IMG/VR virus record: IMGVR_UViG_3300045120_000547
Coordinates: 1-47,923 of that record
Strand: one strand, 5' to 3'
DNA: 47,923 nt
Origin: a virus
A model generated the notes under the pieces. The model ran no database searches. It had not been told where the DNA came from and was given only the letters and a program-made list of their open reading frames with translations. The translations under genes and the position numbers were made by a program. Of the stretch, positions 13,981 to 26,640 are shown in pieces (the first letter of the stretch is position 1; every line of letters begins with the position of its first letter).

Positions 13981-14009
13981 AGCATATGCAAATCATCGTT
14001 AAATGTCAA
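13981..14009 (-). promoter_or_regulatory. Early-type promoter P1 (TTGACA-17-TATGCT)
   Basis: -35 TTGACA at 14004-14009 and -10 TATGCT at 13981-13986. It should drive the unit from the SH3-like repeat gene through the ligase to the membrane microprotein at 10867. It is the weakest match of the family and has a longer leader (about 70 nt). Confidence 0.6.
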
Positions 14010-14031
14010 GACCGAAAAGAGACAAAAGATG

Positions 14032-14502
14032 TCATTTTTCGACTTGAGCGAACTTCCACCAGTTCTGAACCCAGCGCCGCCCCCGGGCCTTGTTCCAGCG
14101 CGTGATCTCAATGGGGAGCTTGGTGTAGGTGTCGCAGGCCTCTCCCCAGCCGACCGCGATGTAATGTCCCGTGACGTTGACAACGTAAGGACCGTCATGA
14201 CCGTGTTCCTCCAGGAATTGTTGAAACCGATAGCGGGGAGCGCGACTACGATCTAAAGGACGGGGGAACCACTGATTTTCCATCTCTTCTACTACCTTCC
14301 AGCCAAACGTCCCCATGGCGATAAGTAGTTCGGAATTGGCAACCCCCATGATCTTTGCTTTTCGTCCCGCCGCGTCCAAGGTCCGGCATGTTTCCCGAAT
14401 GGTTTCCCGAATTTCAGAGATTGGTTGTCCTGTGACGGCGGAGATAGCGGTGGGCCCACAAAAGGCCCGGTTCCGCACATCATAGACCGGCGTGAAGAGC
14501 AT
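14032..14502 (-). CDS. Papain-like cysteine peptidase-type protein
   Basis: Starting at 14502 (AGGAGGAAACG-ATG), the protein has 156 residues. AFCGPTAISAVTG (Cys15) and YVVNVTGHYIAVGWG (His113) are the two halves of a papain/C39-like active site, with an Asp (residue 124, ACDTYT) as possible third residue. Such small proteins can cleave peptides or isopeptide bonds or act as inhibitors. It sits among small early genes, suggesting action on host proteins, but no substrate can be inferred. Confidence 0.7.
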   Translation of the reverse strand: MLFTPVYDVRNRAFCGPTAISAVTGQPISEIRETIRETCRTLDAAGRKAKIMGVANSELLIAMGTFGWKVVEEMENQWFPRPLDRSRAPRYRFQQFLEEHGHDGPYVVNVTGHYIAVGWGEACDTYTKLPIEITRWNKARGRRWVQNWWKFAQVEK

Positions 14503-14512
14503 CGTTTCCTCC

Positions 14513-14710
14513 TCAGATGAAATCGATGGATTCAATATGTTTTACGAAAATGATCTTTCCATCCCGGGCGATAGAACCAACACCCTCATTGAGAACTTTT
14601 TGATACTCCTCCGCATAGTCTTGGGCTGTTTTTCCCTCCACCGGCTCATCAAGTCTGAATATCCGGCGATCCCCGGAAATCGTACAAATTCGCATTTCTG
14701 TAATCATCAT
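14513..14710 (-). CDS. 65-residue small protein
   Basis: It has a strong ribosome-binding site (GAGGAGGAAATATA) before a doubled ATG. The product starts with a beta-hairpin-like MRICTISGDRRIFRLDEP, then a helix (AQDYAEEYQKVLNEG) and a final strand pair. It is compact and mixed alpha/beta. No family recognised. It lies directly upstream of the peptidase gene and is probably co-transcribed. Confidence 0.65.
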   Translation of the reverse strand: MMITEMRICTISGDRRIFRLDEPVEGKTAQDYAEEYQKVLNEGVGSIARDGKIIFVKHIESIDFI

Positions 14711-14723
14711 TATATTTCCTCCT

Positions 14724-14786
14724 CTAAATGAAAAATAACATGGCGATGAAGGTCAGGAGAAAGGCGTGAACTGACAATTCCAACAT
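14724..14786 (-). CDS. 20-residue hydrophobic microprotein
   Basis: GGGAGGAAAGAC precedes an ATG opening a 20-codon frame, MLELSVHAFLLTFIAMLFFI, a single membrane helix. The ribosome-binding site is as strong as those of the longer neighbours, and the frame fills the space between genes exactly. Very short phage membrane peptides are known in general; nothing points to a specific role here. Confidence 0.45.
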   Translation of the reverse strand: MLELSVHAFLLTFIAMLFFI

Positions 14787-14808
14787 GTCTTTCCTCCCTA
14801 GGATAGGC

Positions 14809-14857
14809 GGGGACTAGCCCTCTTCATCACCGGTTGCGGCTCCAAGAGCTAGTCCCC
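14809..14857. repeat. Inverted repeat (stem-loop) between small genes
   Basis: GGGGACTAG (14809-14817) pairs with CTAGTCCCC (14849-14857). A further five pairs (CTCTT with AAGAG) form after a two-base bulge, leaving a loop of about 20 nt. There is no T run on either side, so a simple intrinsic terminator is not supported. It may be an RNA stability or processing element within the operon. Confidence 0.5.
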
Positions 14858-14888
14858 TACCCCGACTCATCACTAGCATGGCCGGGGA

Positions 14889-15092
14889 TTAGATGTCGGC
14901 GTTAGTTTCCTCCGTCACGTCCGGCCGGTTCCGGCGTGTGTACTTCCGGACCTTGGGGTTGGCGGCTTCCCCGGGCGTCCAGCCGCCCCGCAGACGCATG
15001 TACATCGTCATATAAGGCAAACCAAAGAAATCAGCGGCTTCCCGAATGCTCCGAAACTTTCGGGTCTTATTCCAACGCTGAAACTGTACCAT
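14889..15092 (-). CDS. 67-residue helix-turn-helix-like protein
   Basis: The ribosome-binding site GAAGGAGACTAAGAT precedes the ATG. The segment SIREAADFFGLPYMTMYMRL (about 15-34) followed by RGGWTPGEAA resembles the helix-turn-helix repeat found beside phage endonucleases and in small DNA-binding proteins. The C-terminus is basic. It probably binds DNA; whether it regulates or is a remnant of a larger nuclease is open. Confidence 0.65.
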   Translation of the reverse strand: MVQFQRWNKTRKFRSIREAADFFGLPYMTMYMRLRGGWTPGEAANPKVRKYTRRNRPDVTEETNADI

Positions 15093-15095
15093 ATC

Positions 15096-15320
15096 TTAGT
15101 CTCCTTCTTTGTTAGGGGCAATTGCCCGGGGATTAACCTTTGGTTGAAGTCTAACGCCGTTTTCGCCCTCAACCCAGGCGCTATGATATTGTTGGACGAC
15201 ATAAACGAAATCATAGGCGGCTTCTCTGAAAGTGCGATAGAGATGTCCGGCCGACCATTCCGGAGGATAAACCTTTTCCTCCCCGTCTTCTGTTTCTTTA
15301 AAAACGATTCGATAGGCCAT
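15096..15320 (-). CDS. 74-residue small protein
   Basis: The start at 15320 follows GAGGGGGAACAAT; an in-frame ATG at 15335 overlaps the ribosome-binding site and is unlikely. The protein MAYRIVFKETEDGEE... has one strand pair and a helix (YRTFREAAYDFVYVVQQYHS). It is unrecognised. It overlaps nothing and lies 11 bp from the upstream gene. Confidence 0.65.
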   Translation of the reverse strand: MAYRIVFKETEDGEEKVYPPEWSAGHLYRTFREAAYDFVYVVQQYHSAWVEGENGVRLQPKVNPRAIAPNKEGD

Positions 15321-15331
15321 ATTGTTCCCCC

Positions 15332-15700
15332 TCATCGCACCCAGTAGGTCACATCATTGAACTCAACGGAGGTATAGTCGGCCAGGATATTTTCCGCCGT
15401 CGCCTCCCAATCAATGACGATATAGTTTGGGATATTTTTGGGAAGGTCCCCAATATCCTTCACCAATTCCTCAGTATAATCAACGAAATAGCTATCCCGG
15501 ATGGCGGTAACAGGATACCAAGCATCCCGCCACTGTTCGTCCCCGCCTTTGCCCTTGCATTCCGCCAGAAAGGCATTCAGGGACCGAAGGTGATCCTGTT
15601 GCTCTGCGGTCAGGGTGTAGGGTGGTTCAAGCTCCAGGCTCTCAACCTCCGCAATCACGTCCCGAAGGTCGATCACGTCGTCTTGGTTACTAACCGGCAT
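15332..15700 (-). CDS. Conserved phage protein with IDWEATAENI motif
   Basis: The 122-residue acidic protein starts after GGGAGGAAAATAAT. A helix (AEQQDHLRSLNAFLAECKG) is followed by SYFVDYTEELVKDIGDLP and, at the C-terminus, NYIVIDWEATAENILADYTS then VTYWVR. This ending resembles a widespread phage family and is reminiscent of the C-terminus of ArdA-type antirestriction proteins, which are acidic DNA mimics. That similarity is from memory and weak. Confidence 0.65.
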   Translation of the reverse strand: MPVSNQDDVIDLRDVIAEVESLELEPPYTLTAEQQDHLRSLNAFLAECKGKGGDEQWRDAWYPVTAIRDSYFVDYTEELVKDIGDLPKNIPNYIVIDWEATAENILADYTSVEFNDVTYWVR

Positions 15701-15714
15701 ATTATTTTCCTCCC

Positions 15715-15966
15715 TTATGGGGTTTCACATTCCTGACGATCCCACTCAATAACAGCGGCGAAGGCGTCTTGCTCCGTAGAAAATCCCTTTTCGACGGCGG
15801 TTGGCATCCGATATTCCCCATCGCTATTCATGTAGCGAATGGCCCAACCGCTAGTCCACTTCTCAATCAAGCAGTGGGGTTGAAGGTTCCAGCTATCGAA
15901 CACGACGGAGCGGCTGTTGTTACCCCGCGTGCAGTCGATGAGATGAAACTTCTGCTTGGTTGACAT
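15715..15966 (-). CDS. 83-residue small protein
   Basis: First gene after promoter P2, with GAGAGGGAGCCGGAC before the ATG. The product contains an aromatic-rich beta region (CLIEKWTSGWAIRYMNSDGE) and a helix near the end (EQDAFAAVIEWDRQ). No family recognised. Confidence 0.65.
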   Translation of the reverse strand: MSTKQKFHLIDCTRGNNSRSVVFDSWNLQPHCLIEKWTSGWAIRYMNSDGEYRMPTAVEKGFSTEQDAFAAVIEWDRQECETP

Positions 15967-15997
15967 GTCCGGCTCCCTCTCTGTTTTCCATGATTTG

Positions 15998-16026
15998 AGA
16001 ATGACATTTTTATTTTAGATTGTCAA
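15998..16026 (-). promoter_or_regulatory. Early-type promoter P2 (TTGACA-17-CATTCT)
   Basis: -35 TTGACA (16021-16026), -10 CATTCT (15998-16003), A-rich AAAATAG upstream and GGAAAAC in the leader. The -35 contains the TGA stop of the gene at 16023. It should drive the genes from 15966 down to 14032. Confidence 0.75.
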
Positions 16027-16214
16027 CCTCTATTTTGAAGAACCTCTTCTAACAGCTTTTCCTCAATGATTACAGTAGCTTGCCAGGATTTTACTAATGC
16101 CGGTCTTAACGCCTTGGCGGCTTCCATCATCATCGTAGCCGATTCGAAGGTGCGAAATTGAATTTTGTCATTTCGCCAGACGATCTTTAGCTGAAAGGGG
16201 TACTGAGAGATCAT
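16023..16214 (-). CDS. 63-residue small protein
   Basis: The start at 16214 is set by AAGGAGGATTTC-ATG. The frame remains open upstream through the Ala-repeat region of the neighbour, but that part is only a leucine-rich shadow. The product has strand segments (FQLKIVWRNDKIQFRTF) and helices (ATMMMEAAKALRPALVK). Its TGA lies inside the -35 box of P2. Function unknown. Confidence 0.65.
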   Translation of the reverse strand: MISQYPFQLKIVWRNDKIQFRTFESATMMMEAAKALRPALVKSWQATVIIEEKLLEEVLQNRG

Positions 16215-16227
16215 GAAATCCTCCTTT

Positions 16228-16830
16228 TTATTCAGGCCATATTTCTTTAACAATTTCCAAAAGGTCAAAAGCAGCAGCATAAGCAGCAACATAAGCAGCA
16301 TAAGCAGCATCAGAAGCAGCGAAAGCAGCATCAGAAGCAGTATAAGCAGCATAAGCTGCATCAGAAGCATCAGAAGCATCAGAAGCAGTATAAGCAGCAT
16401 AAGCAGCATAAGCAGCATCAGAAGCAGAATTTTTTGATCGATCCTCTCCGCTCAACCACTTGTCAGCCCATAGGTTCCAGGCTATATCCGAATAGACTTT
16501 TTTGACACAAAGGATAGCAAAATGAATCCGTTCCTCAAAAGTAATCTTCGGAAGAGGTATCTGTCGGATTGTAGTCAGCTTAGTGACACCCACCTTAAGC
16601 TGGTGTTCGGATTTGAACTCACCTTCTCCCTCCGCTTCCCATAGGACAGGATTCCTAATAGCTCCATGAATTGGGTTTAGGAGGACAGCCAAATAAGGAT
16701 CAAGATAGGCATGAAGCCAACCGGCCCCACAAAGCTCCCCTTCCCCGTTTGTTTCATGGGTGACCCCTTCTCCCCATTGGGTATTATTATAGGTCTGATG
16801 CGTTTTGTTGGTAAGCTTATAGAGTTTCAT
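16228..16830 (-). CDS. Phage protein with Ala-Tyr-rich tandem repeats
   Basis: The 200 residues have two parts. Residues 1-133 resemble a widespread phage domain (DUF7666-like): MKLYKLTN, LCGAGWLHAYLDPYLAVLLN, KITFEERIHFAILCVKKVY and NLWADKWLSGEDRS. The second part (about 138-190) is an imperfect repeat of SDAAYAAY/TASDA triplets, helical and alanine-rich, ending in an acidic helix. The repeat should vary in length between relatives. The gene starts after an AAGGAG-type site and is in the P3 unit. Function unknown. Confidence 0.7.
   Translation of the reverse strand: MKLYKLTNKTHQTYNNTQWGEGVTHETNGEGELCGAGWLHAYLDPYLAVLLNPIHGAIRNPVLWEAEGEGEFKSEHQLKVGVTKLTTIRQIPLPKITFEERIHFAILCVKKVYSDIAWNLWADKWLSGEDRSKNSASDAAYAAYAAYTASDASDASDAAYAAYTASDAAFAASDAAYAAYVAAYAAAFDLLEIVKEIWPE
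16269..16427 (-). repeat. Tandem 9-nt/6-nt coding repeats (GCAGCATAA / GCAGCATCA type)
   Basis: About 160 bp of near-perfect short tandem repeats, seen on the plus strand as GCAGCATAA and GCAGCATCAGAA units. They encode Ala-Tyr and Ser-Asp-Ala repeats on the minus strand. Low complexity makes spurious frames here; the long leucine-methionine frame is an artefact of the repeat. Confidence 0.9.
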
Positions 16831-16845
16831 AATAATCTCCTTTTT

Positions 16846-17235
16846 TTACTTTGAACGGGGGCCGCCCTTAACATATCCCCGGGAAAGATAAGAATCAAGC
16901 TCCGGGGCGTTAACTCTAGCTCTGTGGCCGGTGACCCGGTTTAGCATCCAAACTTTACCGGCAAGCCCCGTAGCCTCAGGGGAGGGGGTTGTAGATAGCT
17001 TGGTACGAACGGAGGGGAGTTTGGCGGATGGCGTAACCGGAGCAGATGGACTCAGCCGCTCTCCCTTGGCCTTTTCAATTTTCCACCGGTTCAAGGCAGC
17101 ATCAATAACGGCCTCTTCTGTATCTTCAGAGAAGCGGACGCCCCAATATTCCCCATTATCCAGAACTATATAGGCAACCCAGGGAGTGAGGGCATCCGGA
17201 TTGACGGAGTGATAAGTTATCACATTGGGCTTCAT
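16846..17235 (-). CDS. 129-residue protein with C-terminal basic module
   Basis: It starts after GGGGGACCTGAAC. The N-terminal half has an ALTPWVAYIVLDNGEYWGVR beta segment and a helix. A Ser/Pro/Thr-rich linker (about 62-90) leads to a C-terminal module (KVWMLNRVTGHRARVNAPEL, then SRGYVKGGPRSK). This short ending recurs in unrelated phage proteins in my memory and may be a nucleic-acid or ribosome-binding tail. Function unknown. Confidence 0.65.
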   Translation of the reverse strand: MKPNVITYHSVNPDALTPWVAYIVLDNGEYWGVRFSEDTEEAVIDAALNRWKIEKAKGERLSPSAPVTPSAKLPSVRTKLSTTPSPEATGLAGKVWMLNRVTGHRARVNAPELDSYLSRGYVKGGPRSK

Positions 17236-17237
17236 GT

Positions 17238-17426
17238 TCAGGTCCCCCAGCTATCGATGCAATTATTCTCATCATCCATGAGCATCACGTCTAGAAAATG
17301 CCCCGACACGGCCTTTTTGACCAAAATGGCATAAAAGTTCCGGCAAGACTCCTCCGAACCCTTATGCTCATTGGATTCAGAATTATTATCGGTGTAGAAA
17401 ACCTTCCAGGGATTACGTTTAAGCAT
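17238..17426 (-). CDS. 62-residue small protein
   Basis: The ribosome-binding site AAAGGGAGGTATCTAAAC overlaps the end of the 21-residue upstream frame. The product begins MLKRNPWKVFYTDNNSES and continues with CRNFYAILVKKAV and FLDVMLMDDENN, giving a mixed alpha/beta look. No family recognised. It lies 2 bp from the downstream gene. Confidence 0.6.
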   Translation of the reverse strand: MLKRNPWKVFYTDNNSESNEHKGSEESCRNFYAILVKKAVSGHFLDVMLMDDENNCIDSWGT

Positions 17427-17428
17427 GT

Positions 17429-17494
17429 TTAGATACCTCCCTTTCGATAGGTGGTGGAAAGCTTGCCGTCCTTCAGCTTGAAGATTTTGGTCAT
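17429..17494 (-). CDS. 21-residue ORF at the head of the P3 unit
   Basis: CGGAGAAAAGCAA-ATG gives a good initiation site 30 bp from the P3 -10. The peptide opens MTKIFKLKDGKLSTTY, close to the ligase N-terminus (MTKIFKKDSTGKL). It could be a leader peptide, a remnant of a copied gene start, or a real microprotein. Confidence 0.4.
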   Translation of the reverse strand: MTKIFKLKDGKLSTTYRKGGI

Positions 17495-17523
17495 TTGCTT
17501 TTCTCCGTTGTTCTCATGATCAG

Positions 17524-17552
17524 AGAATGACATTTTTAGAATCGGATGTCAA
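17524..17552 (-). promoter_or_regulatory. Early-type promoter P3 (TTGACA-17-CATTCT)
   Basis: -35 TTGACA (17547-17552), -10 CATTCT (17524-17529), AAAATAGCAG upstream. The leader is short, with the first start codon about 30 bp beyond the -10. It drives genes from 17494 to 16023. Confidence 0.75.
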
Positions 17553-17560
17553 CTGCTATT

Positions 17561-17722
17561 TTAAGAAAACCTACCGGGATTAATATTATGAACGATAGCA
17601 ACGTCAACATCCGGGTGAATTTGCCGAAGCCGCCAATCTTGAGCGCGCTCTAGGGTGGTAAATGGACCATGAACAGATATAGCCACCCCAACCTCATTCA
17701 GAATTACAATCGACCAGTTCAT
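17561..17722 (-). CDS. 53-residue small protein
   Basis: The ATG at 17722 overlaps the TAA of the upstream gene as TAATG, and GGAGGAAAATA provides the ribosome-binding site. The product opens MNWSIVILNEVGVAIS and has a helix (TTLERAQDWRLRQIHP), then a strand. This small alpha/beta layout is also seen in the upstream gene, hinting at a shared fold. Function unknown. Confidence 0.6.
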   Translation of the reverse strand: MNWSIVILNEVGVAISVHGPFTTLERAQDWRLRQIHPDVDVAIVHNINPGRFS

Positions 17723-17862
17723 TATTTTCCTCCAAAGTGTGTGGTTTTCCAGGCCTCAGCTTCTGCCTCAGTGTTAAAAGAGAACAAACACTGAAAGTAG
17801 CCCTTGCGTTCCACTCCGACCCGCCAGAAACCGTTGAAAAACTTAATAATCACATTGTTCAT
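17722..17862 (-). CDS. 46-residue small protein
   Basis: It starts at 17862 after ACGGGAGAAAACAC; the longer frame upstream overlaps the preceding gene without a good start site. The protein MNNVIIKFFNGFWRVG... has two strands and a helix (FNTEAEAEAWKTTHFG). The strand-strand-helix order matches the downstream 53-residue gene. Function unknown. Confidence 0.6.
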   Translation of the reverse strand: MNNVIIKFFNGFWRVGVERKGYFQCLFSFNTEAEAEAWKTTHFGGK

Positions 17863-17875
17863 GTGTTTTCTCCCG

Positions 17876-18028: not shown

Positions 18029-18043
18029 ATTGATTCTCCTTCA

Positions 18044-18391: not shown

Positions 18392-18418
18392 GACATTTCC
18401 TTCGTTTCCGATTTTTAG

Positions 18419-18447
18419 ATATTACCGGAAATGCCATTTAATGTCAA
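18419..18447 (-). promoter_or_regulatory. Early-type promoter P4 (TTGACA-17-TAATAT)
   Basis: -35 TTGACA (18442-18447), -10 TAATAT (18419-18424), AAAATAAAG upstream, leader with ATCGGAAACGAAGG. The TGA stop of the gene ending at 18444 is embedded in the -35. It drives genes from 18391 to 17561. Confidence 0.78.
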
Positions 18448-18719
18448 ACTTTATTTTCGAAGTTCTCCTCCCGTTGAACCCGCATCGCGGCCTCAGAGCC
18501 CCGGTCATAGGCCTGGGCGGCCACATCCTTGTACTTCTCCCCCCTCCACTTATCATTCATGTAGTCGTCATAACCCTCTTGGAACTCCGGATACATGTCG
18601 TAGGGAGCGTATTCGACCCGAATCGCCATTTCCAGAGCAGATTGTATCGCATACCGATAGGGCCCGGGGGCGGCGTGCTTAAGTTCCTCCCGAATTGTTT
18701 CAACTGCTGATTTGGTCAT
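18444..18719 (-). CDS. 91-residue helical protein
   Basis: The start at 18719 is set by ACGGAGGAAATGAC-ATG directly after P5; the longer frame upstream is antisense to the gp5 OB-fold gene. The protein is helical with an EFQEGYDDYMNDKWRGEK segment and acidic and basic patches. It may be the sole gene of its unit. Function unknown. Confidence 0.65.
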   Translation of the reverse strand: MTKSAVETIREELKHAAPGPYRYAIQSALEMAIRVEYAPYDMYPEFQEGYDDYMNDKWRGEKYKDVAAQAYDRGSEAAMRVQREENFENKV

Positions 18720-18746
18720 GTCATTTCCTCCGTTTTCCATTCTCAA

Positions 18747-18775
18747 GAAATAGCATTTTTGAAGATCAGTGTCAA
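18747..18775 (-). promoter_or_regulatory. Early-type promoter P5 (TTGACA-17-TATTTC)
   Basis: -35 TTGACA (18770-18775), -10 TATTTC (18747-18752), leader containing GGAAAACGGAGG. It faces away from the plus-strand gp5 OB-fold gene, whose start lies 9 bp beyond the -35. Confidence 0.7.
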
Positions 18776-18783
18776 CTCTAAAT

Positions 18784-19122
18784 ATGAGAATGATCCGAAG
18801 TTTTGCGACAGAAACCGATACTGGTCTAATTCCCGCCATGGTGATATCGACAGATGACCCGGAGGGCCGGGGAAGAGTCAAGGTTCAGCGTCTGGACCAA
18901 TCAAATCTTAAAGAGGACGACCTCCCCTGGATTTATATTCACGGGCAATCGCATGTGTCTAATGTCTGGGGAAAGAGCGGACAATCAATTGGACAGTCCA
19001 CCCATGCCCTCATAGCCGGAACGTGGCTAAACGTCTCCAAGAGGCACGCGGACGGCCAGACGGGGGCTTCACACGGCGTTATCTCCACGACAGAGGGCGA
19101 ACAAGGGGCGGGACAAACATAA
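18784..19122 (+). CDS. 5: gp5 OB-fold domain protein (split gp5, N-terminal part)
   Basis: The 112 residues match the N-terminal OB domain of T4 gp5: a STDDPEGRGRVKVQRLDQSN strand region, DLPWIYIHGQSHV, then GQSIGQSTHALIAGTWLNV, with the DP-x-G-RV-V and LPW signatures. In T4 this domain binds gp27 and is followed by lysozyme and beta-helix domains. Here the protein ends after it, and the beta-helix is a separate gene 7.5 kb away. The start may be the ATG at 18784 or 18790. A CTAAATA sequence overlaps the start region, but no classical ribosome-binding site is visible. Confidence 0.75.
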   Translation: MRMIRSFATETDTGLIPAMVISTDDPEGRGRVKVQRLDQSNLKEDDLPWIYIHGQSHVSNVWGKSGQSIGQSTHALIAGTWLNVSKRHADGQTGASHGVISTTEGEQGAGQT

Positions 19123-19685: not shown

Positions 19686-19739
19686 GAGCGTTCTGAACGG
19701 CCTTCAGGGCTATTGAAAGATGACGAAAGGTCGGAATAT

Positions 19740-20571: not shown

Positions 20572-20601
20572 GACTGTTCTCCGTTTCGTTTCCAGGATTA
20601 G

Positions 20602-20630
20602 AGAATGCCATTTTTCTTTTAGAATGTCAA
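20602..20630 (-). promoter_or_regulatory. Early-type promoter P6 (TTGACA-17-CATTCT)
   Basis: -35 TTGACA (20625-20630), -10 CATTCT (20602-20607), ATAATAACAT upstream, leader with CCTGGAAACGAAACGGAG. It drives 20571 to 19740. The cassette is almost identical to P7. Confidence 0.8.
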
Positions 20631-20636
20631 ATGTTA

Positions 20637-20876
20637 TTATGCAATATCGACGCTCTGAATCCGATAGCTAGGTATGATGATACCCCCTACCAAATGAGCG
20701 TCGTAGGTGGGATAGTGGTTGGCCTCAAGAACGCCAAACAGGTCCCCGCCGTTGACGGTCTGAACCCGGATAGTCGTACCCTTCGGGATGATCAGCTTCC
20801 CGTTGCAGTCCCGGGAATAACCATCCCACTTAGTGGCTTCATCGATCTCAACGTTCATTCGGATTTTGTGAGCCAT
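20637..20876 (-). CDS. 79-residue small beta-rich protein
   Basis: ACGGGAGGAACAAA precedes the ATG. The sequence (MAHKIRMNVEIDEATKW, IIPKGTTIRVQTVNGGDLFG, GIIIPSYRIQSVDI) suggests a small beta-barrel. It ends just before P6 and belongs to the P7 unit. Function unknown. Confidence 0.65.
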   Translation of the reverse strand: MAHKIRMNVEIDEATKWDGYSRDCNGKLIIPKGTTIRVQTVNGGDLFGVLEANHYPTYDAHLVGGIIIPSYRIQSVDIA

Positions 20877-20891
20877 TTTGTTCCTCCCGTT

Positions 20892-21098: not shown

Positions 21099-21111
21099 GT
21101 TCCCTACTCCC

Positions 21112-21432
21112 CTAGGCGGTTAAGTCTTTGGGAGGATAAATGATTTTACCCTCATATTCAAGCTGCATCTTCTCATCATCGCTGAGATAGTCGTCCTCAA
21201 CCAGTTCCCAATCAATGAGGTATTCCTGATAGTAGTCACCCCGGCCCTCAACCTCATTCTTAAGAAAGGCCTCATTCACCAGGGAAAGCAGTTTATTCTG
21301 AAGGGCCAACTCCGCAGCCCTCTGGACGCTCAGCCGCGCCACGATATAGGTGGAACCACCCTTGCACTTCCAACGGGGGGTTTCGGCCGTCCCGTAGTTC
21401 TCCAGAACCTGAGTGTAGGCGATGATCTTCAT
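21112..21432 (-). CDS. Conserved phage-type 106-residue protein
   Basis: First gene after P7, starting at 21432 (ACGGAGGAACCCGCC-ATG). The protein opens MKIIAYTQVLENYGTAETPR, has a helix (VQRAAELALQNKLLSLVNEA) and ends with LVEDDYLSDDEKMQLEYEGK. I recall close relatives of this sequence in diverse phages as uncharacterised proteins. Function unknown. Confidence 0.7.
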   Translation of the reverse strand: MKIIAYTQVLENYGTAETPRWKCKGGSTYIVARLSVQRAAELALQNKLLSLVNEAFLKNEVEGRGDYYQEYLIDWELVEDDYLSDDEKMQLEYEGKIIYPPKDLTA

Positions 21433-21464
21433 GGCGGGTTCCTCCGTTTCGTTTCCAGAACCAG

Positions 21465-21493
21465 ATAATGCCATTTCTAACTTAAGATGTCAA
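21465..21493 (-). promoter_or_regulatory. Early-type promoter P7 (TTGACA-17-CATTAT)
   Basis: -35 TTGACA (21488-21493), -10 CATTAT (21465-21470), AAAATAACAT upstream, leader with CTGGAAACGAAACGGAGG. It drives 21432 to 20637. Confidence 0.8.
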
Positions 21494-21501
21494 ATGTTAT
21501 T

Positions 21502-21684
21502 TTAATTAAGCCGCCCAAACTGTTTGTGATAATATCGCCACCGTTCCCCTTCGTCATTAATGAATAAATCCGGAGCACAACAAGAGAAATCCGGGGCACA
21601 CTCATCGTTGATGGGTTCATGATAGACGTTGCCCCGGGCCCATTCTAAAGCCTGAAGGCGCGCCCTCTCATAATATTCTTTCAT
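21502..21684 (-). CDS. 60-residue small protein
   Basis: It is preceded by GAAGGAGTTGAATACCGC. The helical start MKEYYERARLQALEWARG is followed by a Cys-containing middle (DECAPDFSCCAPDLF) and an aromatic end (RWRYYHKQFG). It ends in the A-rich element of P7. Function unknown. Confidence 0.6.
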   Translation of the reverse strand: MKEYYERARLQALEWARGNVYHEPINDECAPDFSCCAPDLFINDEGERWRYYHKQFGRLN

Positions 21685-21691
21685 GCGGTAT

Positions 21692-21937
21692 TCAACTCCT
21701 TCGGAGATATTCGGGGATCATCCCCAGTTCATTCATATTCTTATCCTCCTCATACTCTGCTTTCTCTTGCAGGAGCCGCATCAGGTCGGCAATGGCTTCC
21801 TCTTCCGTTGCCCCGTAGCCGATATCATGGCGGTTGGAGCTATCTTCCGCCCCGTCATAGGTGTCGTCATCAAGAGCCGACCACTTAAGTGAATCGTGAA
21901 TGGCAAAATGATCACTACGGGCAGTGCGAATTTTCAT
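21692..21937 (-). CDS. 81-residue acidic small protein
   Basis: GGGGGAGTAAGGAAT precedes the ATG. It contains a polar middle (DDDTYDGAEDSSNRHDIGYG) and an acidic helix (EEEAIADLMRLLQEKAEYEE). GYGATEEEAIADLM resembles the short helix motif of many small phage proteins. It is read from P8. Function unknown. Confidence 0.62.
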   Translation of the reverse strand: MKIRTARSDHFAIHDSLKWSALDDDTYDGAEDSSNRHDIGYGATEEEAIADLMRLLQEKAEYEEDKNMNELGMIPEYLRRS

Positions 21938-21942
21938 ATTCC

Positions 21943-22185
21943 TTACTCCCCCTTGTCGGAAAGGCGAACGAATCGATCATCTTCGCCCTCTTTCAGTGAG
22001 AAAGAGATCGACGCTCCGGGACCAAACTGGCGATAGCCACAGACAAACAGCTTACCATGGATGTCATTCTGCTTGACGTGGACGCTGGTCACAACGGTCG
22101 GCTCTCCGTAACGGCCATCAATGCCCTGCTGGACCAGGGTCCGGCCAACCTGAATTGAATCAATCTGGGTGCGGGAGTAGATCAT
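21943..22185 (-). CDS. 80-residue small beta-rich protein
   Basis: First gene after P8, with AGAAAGGAGACAGTTT-ATG. The sequence alternates short strands and Gly turns (IQVGRTLVQQGIDGRYGEPT, VVTSVHVKQND, KLFVCGYRQFGPG), suggesting a small barrel. Function unknown. Confidence 0.65.
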   Translation of the reverse strand: MIYSRTQIDSIQVGRTLVQQGIDGRYGEPTVVTSVHVKQNDIHGKLFVCGYRQFGPGASISFSLKEGEDDRFVRLSDKGE

Positions 22186-22220
22186 AAACTGTCTCCTTTC
22201 TGTTGCCGTCCGATTTCCGT

Positions 22221-22249
22221 ATACTAAAGGAATCGGGATAAGATGTCAA
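22221..22249 (-). promoter_or_regulatory. Early-type promoter P8 (TTGACA-17-TAGTAT)
   Basis: -35 TTGACA (22244-22249), -10 TAGTAT (22221-22226). Its spacer sequence is nearly the same as that of P9, including the CTTATCCCGATTCC tract. It drives 22185 to 21502. Confidence 0.78.
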
Positions 22250-22266
22250 ATGCTAAAATGTTATTT

Positions 22267-22431
22267 TTAAATAATTCCCCTGTCATAAAAGTTTTCTTTG
22301 TAGAAACGGGCGCGCGCCGCATCCGGGACCTCTCCCAGGGTCCAACAATATTCAATGAAGGCCCGGAGAAGATGGGCATCCCAATCCTTAAAGATGTCCA
22401 TCGACATGTTATCGAAAATCTTCTTTTCCAT
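22267..22431 (-). CDS. 54-residue small helical protein
   Basis: Starting at 22431, two bases after the stop of the 39-residue gene, it encodes MEKKIFDNMSMDIFKDW... with helices DAHLLRAFIEYCWTLGEV and DAARARFYKENFYD. It has the look of a small globular or helix-turn-helix domain. The ribosome-binding site is GTGGAG within the upstream gene. Function unknown. Confidence 0.62.
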   Translation of the reverse strand: MEKKIFDNMSMDIFKDWDAHLLRAFIEYCWTLGEVPDAARARFYKENFYDRGII

Positions 22432-22433
22432 GA

Positions 22434-22553
22434 TCAGAACTCCACCCAGTGGTCAGACGACCAGCACCACACGCCCCAGGTACCATCCCGATGCTGCTTT
22501 GCGGCATAATCCCGGTCCCACGCTGCCAACTTCTGCGCCTGTGCCTTCGTCAT
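22434..22553 (-). CDS. 39-residue small protein
   Basis: First gene after P9 (AGAGGAGATACGAAC-ATG). It is basic and Trp-rich: MTKAQAQKLAAWDRDYAAKQ, then TWGVWCWSSDHWVEF. The promoter-to-start spacing equals that of the other cassettes, supporting it as a real gene despite its size. Function unknown. Confidence 0.62.
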   Translation of the reverse strand: MTKAQAQKLAAWDRDYAAKQHRDGTWGVWCWSSDHWVEF

Positions 22554-22584
22554 GTTCGTATCTCCTCTTGTTTCCATATTCAGG

Positions 22585-22613
22585 ATACTAAAGGAATCGG
22601 GATAAGATGTCAA
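22585..22613 (-). promoter_or_regulatory. Early-type promoter P9 (TTGACA-17-TAGTAT)
   Basis: -35 TTGACA (22608-22613), -10 TAGTAT (22585-22590), AAAATAAAAC upstream, leader ATATGGAAACAAGAGGAG. The TGA stop of the gene ending at 22610 lies in the -35. It drives 22553 and 22431. Confidence 0.8.
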
Positions 22614-22777
22614 GTTTTATTTTCATTAAATGGGGTTGTGGCCAGCATTATGCCAAGAAGCGTATTGGCTAGCTCCCGCTGTTCGTCCCGGTTCAGAACC
22701 CGGTCCACGTCATAAAGTCGGGCCAAAACAAATTTCAGCCTCTTCCAGCCCTCAATCTCCATGCGGACGCCTTTCAT
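22610..22777 (-). CDS. 55-residue small helical protein
   Basis: The ATG at 22777 overlaps the previous stop (ATGA) and follows GGGGAGAGTGGCC. The product is helical throughout (MEIEGWKRLKFVLARLYDVD, DEQRELANTLLGIML). It is the last gene of the P10 unit, and its TGA is part of the P9 -35 box. Function unknown. Confidence 0.62.
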   Translation of the reverse strand: MKGVRMEIEGWKRLKFVLARLYDVDRVLNRDEQRELANTLLGIMLATTPFNENKT

Positions 22778-22962
22778 GGCCACTCTCCCCTGATCATGGC
22801 AAACCTGTTCTGCCAGATATTATCGATCTTTTGATGCTCCAAATAGGAGTCCCACAATTCCGGAGAGATTTCAAAGATATCTACCGTCCTACCGGCCGTT
22901 GTTATTTGGCTATAGTCTATAGCCTCATACCGGCCATCCACATAGCTAATCCAGACTTTCAT
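22774..22962 (-). CDS. 62-residue small protein
   Basis: ATGGAGAAGAACA-ATG, with ATGA overlap to the upstream stop. MKVWISYVDGRYEAIDYSQI is beta-like, followed by a Glu/Asp-rich helix (ELWDSYLEHQKIDNIWQ). Function unknown. Confidence 0.62.
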   Translation of the reverse strand: MKVWISYVDGRYEAIDYSQITTAGRTVDIFEISPELWDSYLEHQKIDNIWQNRFAMIRGEWP

Positions 22963-23159
22963 TGTTCTTCTCCATATTTGTCAAAAAACGCGACAATGTT
23001 TAGGTTTTCCTGATTATCATAACATGTCGTTACCTGACCGGCATAGCCGTCGTGTTCCTGGAAATATATAAGTAACTCCCGGGCCATGGCTTCGGAGTAA
23101 CATGGAATGTTAATGAGGTAATTTTTGATCATCGTGCAGATTTCAAAGCGATGCAGCAT
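22959..23159 (-). CDS. 66-residue small protein
   Basis: The start at 23159 follows CGGAGAGTTAAA, which also contains the stop of the upstream gene. Longer in-frame upstream sequence overlaps that gene. The protein MLHRFEICTMIKNYLINIPC... continues with a helix (SEAMARELLIYFQEHDG) and two strands. Function unknown. Confidence 0.6.
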   Translation of the reverse strand: MLHRFEICTMIKNYLINIPCYSEAMARELLIYFQEHDGYAGQVTTCYDNQENLNIVAFFDKYGEEQ

Positions 23160-23160
23160 T

Positions 23161-23319
23161 TTAACTCTCCGATGATATTTTGATTCGCTTAGCGGAGCGA
23201 AGCAGGGTCCGAAGGGCCTCAATCCCGGCCGGATCAGGCTTAGGAAAACAATCCACAGCCTTCTCAATTACCAGAATTTGCCAGTCACTTAGCTCAATCC
23301 AGAGGTTGGTCTTTGCCAT
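23161..23319 (-). CDS. 52-residue small helical protein
   Basis: AAAGGACTCCGAAC-ATG. MAKTNLWIELSDWQILVIEK is followed by FPKPDPAGIEALRTLLRSAK, two helices with a Pro-rich turn. It overlaps the end of the upstream 70-residue gene, and its TAA precedes the next ATG by 1 bp. Function unknown. Confidence 0.62.
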   Translation of the reverse strand: MAKTNLWIELSDWQILVIEKAVDCFPKPDPAGIEALRTLLRSAKRIKISSES

Positions 23320-23506
23320 GTTCGGAGTCCTTTCTTTGGTGCCATTTCACTAGCTCTTTAAGTCGCCATATTTCTCTTTCAAGAATTTCTATATTATCGT
23401 GGAGACACAACCAATCAGTCTTTAAGTCTGACTTTTGATCAATATTAGACTGGAGTTGAATGATATTGGACATTACTCCCTGGAGTAACTTATAATATTG
23501 TTCCAT
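23294..23506 (-). CDS. 70-residue coiled-coil-like protein
   Basis: GAAGGAGTAGGGAAC-ATG. The sequence is nearly all helical with heptad-like hydrophobics (KLLQGVMSNIIQLQSNIDQK, EILEREIWRLKELVKW), so it probably forms a helical hairpin or dimer. Function unknown. Confidence 0.62.
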   Translation of the reverse strand: MEQYYKLLQGVMSNIIQLQSNIDQKSDLKTDWLCLHDNIEILEREIWRLKELVKWHQRKDSEHGKDQPLD

Positions 23507-23553
23507 GTTCCCTACTCCTTCGGTTGTGCTCTGCTATGCGCAACAGTGGTGTC

Positions 23554-23775
23554 CTATTCGACTGAGCAGTCTACCACACTACGGACCAGCTTATCCCCAG
23601 CGTCGGGCCTATTTTCCCGATATTTGCGTACAAGCGCCTCTTTTGGGCCGGATTGTTCCGCCGCATAGCTCTTTAGCTCTCTACTCCTCTACTTCCACGG
23701 ATAAGGACACTGAGTGGTCCGATCTGACCGCAACCAAGCCTTATACTCTTCACTATAACCTTTTGCGATGCTCAT
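23554..23775 (-). pseudogene. Small gene interrupted by an in-frame TAG (or readthrough)
   Basis: First frame after P10 (GATGGAGCCCGGAC-ATG). It encodes 28 residues (MSIAKGYSEEYKAWLRSD..., ending TTQCPYPWK), then TAG at 23689-23691. The same frame continues without any start codon for 45 plausible codons (RSRELKSYAAEQSGPKEALV...) to a second TAG at 23554. Protein-like sequence on both sides suggests a recent nonsense change or amber readthrough. The 28-residue part alone could also be functional; its CPYP motif recalls small ribosome-binding proteins, but only faintly. Confidence 0.5.
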
Positions 23776-23811
23776 GTCCGGGCTCCATCTCTCTGCGTTT
23801 CCGATTTCCAG

Positions 23812-23840
23812 ATAATGCCATTTTTCTTTTAGATTGTCAA
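23812..23840 (-). promoter_or_regulatory. Early-type promoter P10 (TTGACA-17-CATTAT)
   Basis: -35 TTGACA (23835-23840), -10 CATTAT (23812-23817), AAAATAACAT upstream, leader CTGGAAATCGGAAACG. It drives the run 23775 to 22610. Confidence 0.8.
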
Positions 23841-23849
23841 ATGTTATTT

Positions 23850-24062
23850 TTATCGAACCATCACGTACGTGTCGTCCCCGGTAGCAATCATGTACATTTT
23901 CTTATAACCCGGGGCAATTGCGAAAAACTTGCCCCGCCACTCTTTCACCCCTGTTGGATAAGTTACTTCCTTTGGAATCTCAATCCAATAGGCGATTTTG
24001 GCTGTTGGGTTAGCTTTAAGGAACGCCTTGGTCGCTTTATCCGCGAACTGCTTCCTGGTCAT
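23850..24062 (-). CDS. 70-residue small basic protein
   Basis: The start at 24062 follows CCGGAGGATATC; the longer frame upstream overlaps the preceding gene. Helix MTRKQFADKATKAFLKANPT is followed by strands (KIAYWIEIPKEV, KFFAIAPGYKKMYMIAT). Basic residues dominate. Function unknown. Confidence 0.63.
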   Translation of the reverse strand: MTRKQFADKATKAFLKANPTAKIAYWIEIPKEVTYPTGVKEWRGKFFAIAPGYKKMYMIATGDDTYVMVR

Positions 24063-24087
24063 GATATCCTCCGGTTCCCTACTCCCC

Positions 24088-24294
24088 TCAACCCCCACAG
24101 TTACTATTATCCCAACCGTCACAGATGATTGTTGCTCCCCGGGTTAACTTGCCGTTCTGAGAACCGGGGCAGGAGCATGATGCCCGAAGCCAACCATTCA
24201 GATTACCTCCGACCGTAACGATCCCCCGGTGTGCCTTGCCTCTGTTGCGGAAAGTGACTTGCTTGAGGGTTTCGGTCTGGGTCTGGTCGGTCAT
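24088..24294 (-). CDS. 68-residue small Cys-containing protein
   Basis: First gene after P11, starting at 24294 (GATGGAGCGACGAAC-ATG). The N-terminus is Thr/Gln-rich; the C-terminal half is Gly/Cys-rich (SCSCPGSQNGKL, ICDGWDNSNC), compatible with metal binding or disulfides. Function unknown. Confidence 0.62.
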   Translation of the reverse strand: MTDQTQTETLKQVTFRNRGKAHRGIVTVGGNLNGWLRASCSCPGSQNGKLTRGATIICDGWDNSNCGG

Positions 24295-24328
24295 GTTCGT
24301 CGCTCCATCTCTTGTTTCCATATCCAGG

Positions 24329-24357
24329 ATTATGCCATTTCCTCTTTAAGATGTCAA
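24329..24357 (-). promoter_or_regulatory. Early-type promoter P11 (TTGACA-17-CATAAT)
   Basis: -35 TTGACA (24352-24357), -10 CATAAT (24329-24334), AAAATAACAT upstream, leader ATATGGAAACAAGAG as in P9. It drives 24294 and 24062. Confidence 0.8.
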
Positions 24358-24372
24358 ATGTTATTTTAGAAT

Positions 24373-24609
24373 TTAGTCTGTTTCTCCCAAAAGAAACTTG
24401 GCGGCCGAAATAGCGGCGGCTCTGGTTTGATAACAATGTCCGACCTTGACTGTCGCCCCGGTCAGCTTATCCCGGAACTTTAGATGCCATCCCGCTACCC
24501 AACTGTTATCACAGTCATAATCAACAGTTGATATAACTGAGATGTAATGCGGTCCCGACAGGGGCTCAAGTTTCCACCAACCCGCCGCCATCCTTGTCAC
24601 TTTGATCAT
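24373..24609 (-). CDS. 78-residue small protein
   Basis: GGGAGTAGGGAAC-ATG at 24609. MIKVTRMAAGWWKLEPLSGP is beta-like, then VDYDCDNSWVAGWHLKFRDK and a C-terminal helix (RAAAISAAKFLLGE). The strand-strand-helix order recurs in several neighbours. Function unknown. Confidence 0.63.
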   Translation of the reverse strand: MIKVTRMAAGWWKLEPLSGPHYISVISTVDYDCDNSWVAGWHLKFRDKLTGATVKVGHCYQTRAAAISAAKFLLGETD

Positions 24610-24622
24610 GTTCCCTACTCCC

Positions 24623-24865
24623 TTAGGCGGCCGAAGCATCTCTTCCAATCACAACCTTCCCGTTGATGGAAGAAAATACAACCGCATTGAAACGATTGGT
24701 ATCAACCACCATGATGTCCATCTTCTCTCCCCGGCTGTAGGGACGGTCGAAGTTCAGGGACGCCGCATAGTCATGGGCCGGGAGGTAGGAGTCAAATGCG
24801 GCATGGGCCCGGCCGTCAACCGTCACGATGTAGCCCAGACCCTTGATGTTGAACTTCTTGGCCAT
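24623..24865 (-). CDS. 80-residue small protein
   Basis: First gene after P12, starting at 24865 (AGGGAGGACACATC-ATG). The sequence MAKKFNIKGLGYIVTVDGRA continues with DSYLPAHDYAASLNF and ends FSSINGKVVIGRDASAA. Mixed alpha/beta. Its stop merges into the GGGAGTAGGGAAC initiation sequence of the next gene. Function unknown. Confidence 0.65.
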   Translation of the reverse strand: MAKKFNIKGLGYIVTVDGRAHAAFDSYLPAHDYAASLNFDRPYSRGEKMDIMVVDTNRFNAVVFSSINGKVVIGRDASAA

Positions 24866-24895
24866 GATGTGTCCTCCCTTGTTTCCGATTTTTAG

Positions 24896-24924
24896 ATTAT
24901 AATGGAATAGCATTTCGTTGTCAA
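24896..24924 (-). promoter_or_regulatory. Early-type promoter P12 (perfect TTGACA-17-TATAAT)
   Basis: -35 TTGACA (24919-24924) and -10 TATAAT (24896-24901) with 17 bp between: a perfect sigma-70 consensus. The leader has ATCGGAAACAAGGGAGG. It drives 24865 and 24609. It is the strongest-looking member of the family. Confidence 0.88.
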
Positions 24925-24950
24925 ATTAAAAATGCTATTTTTTATTCCCC

Positions 24951-25268
24951 TCAAAACGGAATTTCGTCGTCAGTGAGAACCGGACGAACAATCCGGGGAA
25001 GAGCAACCTTCGGGAACACTACGAAGTTGGTTTCGTAATCCTCATCCTTTTCAGCCCGATCCCGAAGCTTGTTGGCGTGATATTCAGCCACCCGCCGCGA
25101 ACCATGCAGGCTCAGGATCGAACGATGGGGATGGGGAAGGGTTGCGTCAGTGAAGGAGCAATAAGCGATGCCCTCAATGACGACCGCGAACAAACCGGCC
25201 GGAACATTCACCAGATGAGAGGTCTGTTCGGAGCGGGAGAGGTCATAGGCGGCCTGAAATTCGTTCAT
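24951..25268 (-). CDS. 105-residue small protein
   Basis: Sole gene between P13 and P12, starting after CAAGGAGAAAACAG. MNEFQAAYDLSRSEQTSHLV, a hydrophobic strand region (GLFAVVIEGIAYCSF), a basic helix (SRRVAEYHANKLRDRAEKDE) and an acidic end (DDEIPF). The last motif resembles DDIPF-type tails that bind partner proteins in single-stranded-DNA-binding proteins; that is only a resemblance. Function unknown. Confidence 0.65.
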   Translation of the reverse strand: MNEFQAAYDLSRSEQTSHLVNVPAGLFAVVIEGIAYCSFTDATLPHPHRSILSLHGSRRVAEYHANKLRDRAEKDEDYETNFVVFPKVALPRIVRPVLTDDEIPF

Positions 25269-25302
25269 CTGTTTTCTCCTTGGTTCTTGTTCCGATGTTT
25301 AG

Positions 25303-25331
25303 ATACTACAAGAACCGGGTTTAGATGTCAA
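25303..25331 (-). promoter_or_regulatory. Early-type promoter P13 (TTGACA-17-TAGTAT)
   Basis: -35 TTGACA (25326-25331), -10 TAGTAT (25303-25308), AAAATAAAAC upstream, leader ATCGGAACAAGAACC. It drives the 25268 gene. Confidence 0.78.
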
Positions 25332-25349
25332 GTTTTATTTTTAGATTTC

Positions 25350-25601
25350 TTACTTTTCGTTGGCATATTTTTGAGCGGCCTTAAAGGCTGCTTCCAGGGT
25401 CTTGTGATACGACCAGGGATCACCCTTGTGACCCACAAAGGACACCGCAAAGGGCTTCTTACGGGGTTTATAGACCCACCGGCTAGCCCAATTATGAGGA
25501 TCATACCAGATGACAAAACCATCCTTATTTTTATAAATGTACTTCCATGCCACCGTTTCGGTAGCTCCGGGCGTGCGATCAAGTATCCATATCGGTGTCA
25601 T
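25350..25601 (-). CDS. 83-residue small protein
   Basis: CGGGGGATATC-ATG. The protein is Trp/Tyr-rich (MTPIWILDRTPGATETVAWK, FVIWYDPHNWASRWVY) with a C-terminal helix (YHKTLEAAFKAAQKYANE). The frame at 25328-25582 in another register is a shadow. It is co-transcribed with 25848 from P14. Function unknown. Confidence 0.63.
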   Translation of the reverse strand: MTPIWILDRTPGATETVAWKYIYKNKDGFVIWYDPHNWASRWVYKPRKKPFAVSFVGHKGDPWSYHKTLEAAFKAAQKYANEK

Positions 25602-25632
25602 GATATCCCCCGGTTCCCTACTCCCTACTCCC

Positions 25633-25848
25633 TTAGGCGAAAGTCTTGAAGCCGTGGCGGGCCGCCGCCGTCATGTCGCCCTGAAAGTCGCCCAGGGATG
25701 CAGAGAAGATCGCCGTCCACCGACCGTCGCGATTGCGAACCACCATCGGGTTTGAGTCCGCCAGACCCATATTGTGCAACGCAACCATAAGGTTGGTCTC
25801 TGTGGCGTAGGACTTCGCGGTGTCGATGTTCATGAGGGCCAGGGCCAT
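25633..25848 (-). CDS. 71-residue small protein
   Basis: First gene after P14, starting at 25848 (ATGGAGATACGGAC-ATG). MALALMNIDTAKSYATETNL is helical, followed by RNRDGRWTAIFSASLGDF and AAARHGFKTFA. The stop runs into GGGAGTAGGGAGTAGGGAAC. Function unknown. Confidence 0.63.
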   Translation of the reverse strand: MALALMNIDTAKSYATETNLMVALHNMGLADSNPMVVRNRDGRWTAIFSASLGDFQGDMTAAARHGFKTFA

Positions 25849-25882
25849 GTCCGTATCTCCATGTCTGTGTTCCGATTTCCAG

Positions 25883-25911
25883 AGTATACAGAATAGCATT
25901 ATTAATGTCAA
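25883..25911 (-). promoter_or_regulatory. Early-type promoter P14 (TTGACA-17-TATACT)
   Basis: -35 TTGACA (25906-25911), -10 TATACT (25883-25888), AAAATAAGAT upstream, leader CTGGAAATCGGAACAC. It drives 25848 and 25601. Confidence 0.8.
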
Positions 25912-25919
25912 ATCTTATT

Positions 25920-26243
25920 TTAAAGATTCTTCTCTTCCGGCCAGACGAAAGTTTCGTTTTCATCATCCCATTCCATACCGACCGGGACCAGCCAGCAATC
26001 CCCATCTTGATGAATGCGATATTTCACTCCTATGTTATCGGTAATGACTGCATCGGCGGTGACACAATCCCAGGCATCCCAATAAAGCTCTTCCTCCGGA
26101 CCAGCTTCCAGGAGCTTCCAATCTTCATCACTGACACCGGTTACCTGCGTTGCCCGATCAGAGAAGCTTCGGGCAAAGTCCCGGGGAATATACTGGCCCC
26201 GGGCATCGGAAAGCCAAAGGATCATTTTGGGTTTGTTGGTCAC
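25920..26243 (-). CDS. 107-residue acidic protein (GTG start)
   Basis: It begins with GTG at 26243, supported by AAAGGAATAATCCG and by a GTGA overlap with the upstream stop. The protein is acidic with many Trp residues (MILWLSDARGQYIPRDFARS, SDEDWKLLEAGPEEELYWDA, DDENETFVWPEEKNL). Net charge suggests a DNA-mimic or protein-inhibitor type, but there is no family match. Last gene of the P15 unit. Confidence 0.65.
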   Translation of the reverse strand: MTNKPKMILWLSDARGQYIPRDFARSFSDRATQVTGVSDEDWKLLEAGPEEELYWDAWDCVTADAVITDNIGVKYRIHQDGDCWLVPVGMEWDDENETFVWPEEKNL

Positions 26244-26401
26244 CGGATTATTCCTTTCTTTGCCTGATGGATGATGATGTCGTTGATTGCGTTGAGGATT
26301 CGCTTGTGGGCGGCGTCGGTGTGACCATTATAGCCCGCATCGTCTTCCGCCGATTCAAGCTGAGCGATCAGGAGCTTAAGCTTTTCATCAACCGGGGTCA
26401 T
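26240..26401 (-). CDS. 53-residue helical small protein
   Basis: The ATG at 26401 overlaps the upstream stop (ATGA), with AAGGAGATACGGAC before it. Two helices: VDEKLKLLIAQLESAEDDA and AHKRILNAINDIIIHQAK. It probably forms a helical hairpin. Function unknown. Confidence 0.65.
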   Translation of the reverse strand: MTPVDEKLKLLIAQLESAEDDAGYNGHTDAAHKRILNAINDIIIHQAKKGIIR

Positions 26402-26583
26402 GTCCGTATCTCCTTGGGTTTGTTTGCTGTTTGGGCCTGGGGTATTGCTTCACCCGTCGCTAACTTGAGTTCGGCGGCACTAATTGAAATTGGCAGCCAG
26501 CGATGGGCTAAGCCCCAGTAATGGGCGCGGCGTTTGCCGTTTTTATCAACCGTAAACCGAATGGTGATTGTGCGGTGGGTCAT
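26398..26583 (-). CDS. 61-residue small basic protein
   Basis: First gene after P15, starting at 26583 (AGAGGAGATATGGAC-ATG); two earlier in-frame ATGs overlap or crowd the ribosome-binding site. MTHRTITIRFTVDKNGKRRA is a basic strand region, followed by LAHRWLPISISAAELKLATG. Function unknown. Confidence 0.63.
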   Translation of the reverse strand: MTHRTITIRFTVDKNGKRRAHYWGLAHRWLPISISAAELKLATGEAIPQAQTANKPKEIRT

Positions 26584-26611
26584 GTCCATATCTCCTCTGT
26601 TCAACAACCAG

Positions 26612-26640
26612 ATAATGCCATTTTTCTTTTAGATTGTCAA
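26612..26640 (-). promoter_or_regulatory. Early-type promoter P15 (TTGACA-17-CATTAT)
   Basis: -35 TTGACA (26635-26640), -10 CATTAT (26612-26617), AAAATAGCAG upstream; the leader lacks the full GGAAAC. It drives 26583, 26401 and 26243, and is divergent from the late box at 26656. Confidence 0.78.

Follow-up and report, generated by a model that had tools for sequence, protein, structure and literature searches.

Among T4-type phages, promoter early stem-loops (PeSLs) are units made of a promoter plus a terminator. They are reported to mediate shuffling in T4-like phages (PMC4503421). The early promoters of T4 itself combine UP, -35, TGn and -10 elements (PMC2988021), 25 repeated promoters were found by PHIRE in the DLP6 paper, and cluster K mycobacteriophages carry short repeats (SAS/ESAS) right before the start codons of unrelated small genes (PMC3203893). 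Here, we describe 14 related promoter-leader units on the minus strand of the IMG/VR virus record IMGVR_UViG_3300045120_000547, the complete 47,923 bases of which form the window analyzed throughout. Promoter cassettes are known in principle from T4-type phages, and the units are a variant of them that lacks terminators; as such they represent a known way of organizing takeover genes and not a new type of system. We consider it likely that they constitute the house-style, host-sigma-70 early promoter set of a T4-superfamily phage, kept alike within the genome by recombination or copying between non-homologous genes.

The promoter-leader family

A first-pass annotation had proposed 15 to 16 near-identical minus-strand promoter cassettes, to be checked by a position-matrix scan. 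All TTGACA hexamers in the window were listed and aligned, and a model built from 14 sites was scanned over the window and 20 Markov shuffles. These 14 sites form one family with scores of 30.4 to 49.1 bits, against 3.9 for the next match in the window and 10.3 for the best shuffle, and the strict pattern TTGACA-N18-ANNAT has 9 matches where 0.61 are expected. The two remaining candidates are not members: P15 (14009-13981) has a leave-one-out score of -10.7, and the "spacer" of P16 (-35 at 7942) contains a T4-type late box, ATAAATA (7929-7923), ahead of a gene at 7890. The members, each named by the start of its -35 hexamer and given with its -10 hexamer, are as follows.

26584-26652, minus strand: P26640 (TTGACA-17-CATTAT); 3 genes (26583-25920); divergent from a plus-strand late box at 26656
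25849-25923, minus strand: P25911 (TATACT); 2 genes; the stop of the upstream gene is 8 bp ahead of the -35
25269-25343, minus strand: P25331 (TAGTAT); 1 gene
24866-24943, minus strand: P24924 (TATAAT); 2 genes; two AATRNYATT boxes (see below) spaced 25 bp
24295-24369, minus strand: P24357 (CATAAT); 2 genes
23776-23852, minus strand: P23840 (CATTAT); 7 genes; 33-bp block identical to that of P26640 (TTGACA through CATTATCTGG)
22554-22625, minus strand: P22613 (TAGTAT); 2 genes; the upstream gene ends at the TGA within TTGACA; 29-bp core identical to that of P22249
22186-22268, minus strand: P22249 (TAGTAT); 3 genes
21433-21505, minus strand: P21493 (CATTAT); 3 genes
20572-20642, minus strand: P20630 (CATTCT); 3 genes
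18720-18787, minus strand: P18775 (TATTTC); 1 gene; overlap with the start of an OB-domain baseplate gene on the plus strand
18392-18459, minus strand: P18447 (TAATAT); 4 genes; the upstream gene ends at the TGA within TTGACA
17495-17564, minus strand: P17552 (CATTCT); 5 genes
15967-16038, minus strand: P16026 (CATTCT); 7-8 genes, including an ArdA-like gene; upstream stop is the TGA within TTGACA

TTGACA and the exact 17-bp spacer claimed for it are invariant in 14 of 14, and the two hexamers of every member lie at the 16-18 bp typical of sigma-70 promoters. The -10 hexamer varies from a perfect TATAAT down to poor versions (CATTCT, TATTTC), and the CATTAT/TAGTAT/TATAAT type first described applies to some members only; TGn precedes it in eight promoters. 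An A-rich element immediately upstream of the -35 is common to the family, a shared leader follows, and the start codon stands 27-36 nt downstream of the -10, much as the annotation had it. Mean pairwise identity is 0.65-0.76 near the -35, with the strongest conservation from -10 to +9 relative to the -35 start, and 0.41-0.61 across the spacer, -10 and leader; past about -20 and +58 it drops to a background of about 0.25, giving the repeats sharp edges and background flanks. The unit therefore comprises the promoter and the leader up to the ribosome-binding site only. "Near-identical" overstates the likeness within these edges, since the promoters fall into three spacer classes, runs of 29-33 identical bases are limited to a few pairs, and identity across the family outside the hexamers is about one half.

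Behind these promoters stand 46 small open reading frames, with 1 to 7-8 genes per unit in keeping with the one to seven proposed. No convincing relationship links the genes of one unit to those of another, clear resemblance being confined to two neighbors in unit 20630, and gene duplication as the origin of the repeats is rejected because the units lack paralogy between them. With unrelated genes and flanks at background identity, the modular promoter-leader unit that had been proposed is borne out. The fragment illustrates how a phage can place dozens of unrelated small genes behind a standard control unit with no terminators, and the same is done, with different sequences, by at least three other phages. 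Promoter sets that are alike within a genome and different between genomes pose a clean question about recombination and selection.

Block exchange, missing terminators and the AATRNYATT box

P22613 and P22249 are identical over the 29 bases from -35 to -10 and differ in their leaders; P26640 and P23840 share 33 identical bases, yet their leaders are different too. Across all pairs, spacer and leader distances are uncorrelated (Mantel r=0.00, p=0.48). Blocks within promoters have therefore been swapped independently of one another, a pattern that agrees with copying or recombination between promoters and not with descent of whole cassettes. The conserved initial transcribed stretch, about AAATCGGAAAC, runs into the Shine-Dalgarno sequence. 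Folding found no RNA structure in the leader (z between -1 and +1.4), against the suggestion that it acts through such structure, and no Rfam families or tRNAs were found.

Twelve promoters have a minus-strand gene immediately upstream, and each abuts it closely, the stop of that gene lying at most 26 bp ahead of the -35 or inside it; in three promoters the TGA of TTGACA serves as that stop. There is no enrichment of terminator-like sites (13 versus 16.6 expected), and folding upstream of the promoters is near background (mean z -0.6). Since no terminators separate the units, polymerase would be likely to read through from one to the next.

The promoters also carry a movable pseudo-palindrome, AATRNYATT, which is new here. 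It occurs in 16 exact copies across the 14 promoter segments, in 12 of the 14 promoters, where 0.3 copies are expected in shuffled segments (maximum 3 in 1000). Because the motif was picked after viewing the data and copies within one spacer class are not independent, this formal excess is overstated, and recurrence in different registers is the stronger argument. Counted from the -35 start, the boxes stand at -16/-15, at -8, at +9 to +11, or at +18, the last in eight promoters (one with a mismatch), where the box overlaps TGn/-10. An example from mid-spacer is the following.

18430-18438, minus strand: AATRNYATT box of P18447 (AATGGCATT, +9 from the -35 start)

Elsewhere in the window, too, the motif exceeds expectation (37 versus 6 in total), and in-frame coding of Asn-X-Ile likely explains the extra copies outside promoters. 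Within promoters, the box is a candidate operator that a regulator of phage or host origin, most simply a repressor, probably binds. A further-reaching proposal, which we hold to be speculative and rather unlikely, is that a phage-encoded regulator binds the box in nearly all early promoters and silences the set at once, while active gene conversion keeps the promoters alike and newly captured genes join the regulon. If true, this would address how T4-like phages end early transcription. The strategies of early shut-off in T4 are still unknown according to a review (PMC2988021), and the box offers a testable handle on them.

A second repeated element, the start-site linker GGAGTAGGGAAC, is likewise new here.

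21099-21110, minus strand: GGAGTAGGGAAC ahead of a downstream gene
23507-23518: exact copy of GGAGTAGGGAAC
24074-24085: exact copy of GGAGTAGGGAAC
24610-24621: exact copy of GGAGTAGGGAAC
25613-25624: exact copy of GGAGTAGGGAAC

The linker is confined to the cassette region, at 21099-25631 on the minus strand, each copy stands before a downstream gene only and without a promoter, and two copies lie within a 29-base repeat of 97% identity (24058-24086 and 25597-25625). SAS elements, at 13 bp, sit at the start codon and have no promoter part, and the five exact copies of the linker are a nearer parallel to them than the 14 promoter-leader units.

Comparison with other phages and competing readings

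The promoter sequence was not shared by any other record searched (IMG/VR by DNA patterns, GTDB genomes, and the loci of 83 relatives); 11 IMG/VR pattern matches appeared chance-like on inspection. Analogous near-identical sets, similar in extent but with their own sequences, do occur elsewhere. In a relative, G008 (IMGVR_UViG_3300043436_003321), a distinct unit with the consensus TTGACAT-N9-AATGTTTATATTGTANATGTAGGCAA is present nine times, in an array spanning 70.4-87 kb (locus L107, G008:C1:70001-90000; also L103). Caulobacter phage C1 carries seven promoter-leader units in its 10.7 kb terminal repeat (MZ574429.2 1-10738), and Sphingobium phage Lacusarx about nine in 10 kb (KY629563.1 119129-129158), with the leaders TCATCGAAACGGGAGACAC / TCACCGAAACGGGAGACAC. 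Both resemble the window in layout, in a nearly equal block extent (-20 to +58) and in a GAAAC...GGAG leader before small genes, but differ in having their own promoter sequences, long intergenic regions, an unrelated phage type and stable upstream folds (mean z -2.5 in C1 and -2.6 in Lacusarx versus -0.6 here). A keyword search of the Lacusarx and phiCbK genome papers returned no description of such sets.

The GAAAC...GGAG string is common to leaders of C1, Lacusarx, Rhizobium phages and the window at weak E-values (0.005-9), one of the blastn queries being a composite consensus rather than a sequence found in nature. The host could plausibly be an alphaproteobacterium; because the leader similarity extends to Klebsiella and Escherichia phages, host assignment from the leader is only suggestive. 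The cross-phage leader pattern was found in only two IMG/VR contigs and is therefore not ubiquitous. The 14 promoters hold no CtrA sites (TTAA-N7-TTAA, TTAACC), and GANTC is found in just five of them.

If the units are a house-style early promoter set, host RNA polymerase with its main sigma factor would read each through the A-rich element (at the alpha-CTD position), -35, 17-bp spacer and -10. Without terminators it would run on, and successive promoters would re-boost a long array of small early genes. The promoters would be homogenized within the genome while spacer and leader blocks are swapped independently, and an AATRNYATT-binding regulator, most simply a repressor, would switch the set off. 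Promoter activity and early timing are predictions from sequence. T4 early promoters are alike in being of host-sigma-70 type, in their A-rich upstream element, in the extended -10 of many, in their position before small genes and in a consensus reaching beyond the hexamers (PMC2988021). They differ in that TTGACA and the 17-bp spacer are invariant in the window, and the leader after the -10, with an identity of 0.49 here versus 0.26-0.30 in five T4 candidates from one 20-kb stretch, is not conserved there.

The placement of late boxes also separates the accessory genes from the structural ones: 10 of the 13 ATAAATA boxes in the window precede structural-region genes by no more than 65 nt (binomial p about 6e-15), whereas no accessory gene has one in front of it. 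Only this placement is informative, because the total number is not enriched. The box divergent from P26640 is listed here.

26656-26662, plus strand: late box ATAAATA, preceding the baseplate gene at 26695

The early, host-takeover role suggested for the accessory genes gains indirect support from their lack of late boxes and from the left-end and terminal-repeat relatives of the ArdA-like gene described below. Several observations weigh against an early sigma-70 set under a common regulator. Several -10 hexamers are poor (CATTCT, TATTTC), so that a phage factor might be needed; the sigma-70 rules assumed are those of E. coli and may not be those of the host; two promoters (25331 and 22613) carry no AATRNYATT box; and conservation of the box may partly reflect sigma contact, because it overlaps TGn/-10 in eight promoters.

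The alternative that survives best is that the units are PeSL-like mobile regulatory cassettes, promoter plus terminator, whose main role would be to provide homology for gene shuffling between phages. The array occupies the same kind of place, a plastic T4-superfamily region, with the same promoter-before-small-genes layout; its promoters are mosaic, its accessory genes were not found in the loci of 80 relatives, and the putative early promoters lie in intergenic parts of a plastic genome segment. Repeated early promoter units, plastic regions and mosaicism are likewise features of PeSLs, as far as papers citing them describe. The stem-loop half, however, is missing, with adjoining terminator-like sites and folds at the background levels given above. 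The promoter sequence recurs in none of the relatives searched, and where other phages have a homologue of the P18447 gene, the sequence upstream of it is different, which leaves the notion of promoter and gene moving together unsupported; genes captured and then given a local house-style promoter are a better fit than mobile promoter-gene cassettes. We regard the PeSL-like explanation as possible, if somewhat doubtful.

Less probable still is that the leader is primarily a translation or mRNA 5'-end element, like the cluster K SAS, behind an ordinary promoter. The leader is conserved to about +58, a start-site linker without a promoter exists alongside it, and similar GAAAC-GGAG leaders occur in alphaproteobacterial phages with different promoters; conservation, on the other hand, peaks upstream of the transcript, no leader structure was found, and the similarity between phages is short and weakly significant. 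That the sites are middle promoters needing a phage activator on AATRNYATT appears improbable. The poor -10s and the fixed +18 register of eight boxes would suit such an activator, but the -35 is perfect in all 14, whereas T4 middle promoters replace it (PMC2988021), other box registers occur, and two promoters are boxless. Chance promoter-like sequence in AT-rich DNA or assembly repeats can practically be dismissed, as scores are far above the shuffles and every copy has unique flanks.

Accessory genes and genome setting

Promoter sets of this kind mark likely places of takeover and anti-defense genes. Nearly all of 43 accessory proteins scanned against Pfam and PHROGs had no family, and tblastn of three further accessory proteins in the phage collection gave no match. 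The exception to this lack of families is the following.

15332-15700, minus strand: ArdA-like gene (phrog_25535, weak ArdA match), with relatives in left-end and terminal-repeat regions of other phages

It is 56% identical to a left-end gene of the Autographivirus Burkholderia phage Paku. Identity to genes within the terminal repeats of Caulobacter phages is about 43%, and a Mycobacterium prophage has a relative annotated as ArdA-like. G+C content at third codon positions (GC3) is 0.64 in promoter-proximal first genes versus 0.51 in later genes (p=0.0006) and 0.38-0.57 in structural genes, which fits strong expression or recent gain of the first genes and proves neither.

The record most likely represents part of the genome of an uncultured myovirus in the T4 superfamily. 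T4-type tail and baseplate proteins encoded in the window include further wedge proteins, gp25, gp53, tail tube and tube cap, with ATAAATA boxes ahead of structural genes, in addition to the following gene.

27971-29740: gp6-like wedge protein

Its best cultured matches, at 31-34% identity, are in Stenotrophomonas phage DLP6, Caulobacter phage Cr30, and Synechococcus and Sinorhizobium phages, and identity reaches 50% among IMG/VR relatives. The minus-strand promoter cassettes split the baseplate gene cluster, which lies on the opposite strand. Close relatives (e.g., L022 and L023) have the compact order tube cap, gp53, tail protein, gp5 region, gp25 and gp6. The distance from the tail-protein gene to the beta-helix match, 1.5 kb in L023, is 15.8 kb in the window. 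Besides a ligase gene and the minus-strand cassettes, this stretch contains a small island on the plus strand whose OB-domain gene is a weak match. Between that OB-domain-like baseplate gene (18769-19122, plus strand) and the beta-helix gene, which is similar to the gp5 C terminus (26695-27540, plus strand), lie 7 kb of minus-strand cassettes in a region that is compact in close relatives.

Some further features were seen in and around the array. One of the 43 accessory proteins weakly matched HTH_psq (E 0.0004).

16228-16830, minus strand: gene whose weak DUF7666 match is followed by a tail of about 60 residues, a low-complexity Ala/Tyr/Ser/Asp repeat
14889-15092, minus strand: small basic protein with a helix-turn-helix look by eye, a possible regulator
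14790-14880, minus strand: intergenic gap whose inverted repeat (GGGGACTAGC ... GCTAGTCCCC) could form a structured RNA or a terminator; no Rfam match
7957-8643 and 44355-45209, both plus strand: two genes resembling homing endonucleases (weak GIY-YIG SegE match; phrog_314), within the baseplate/tail region

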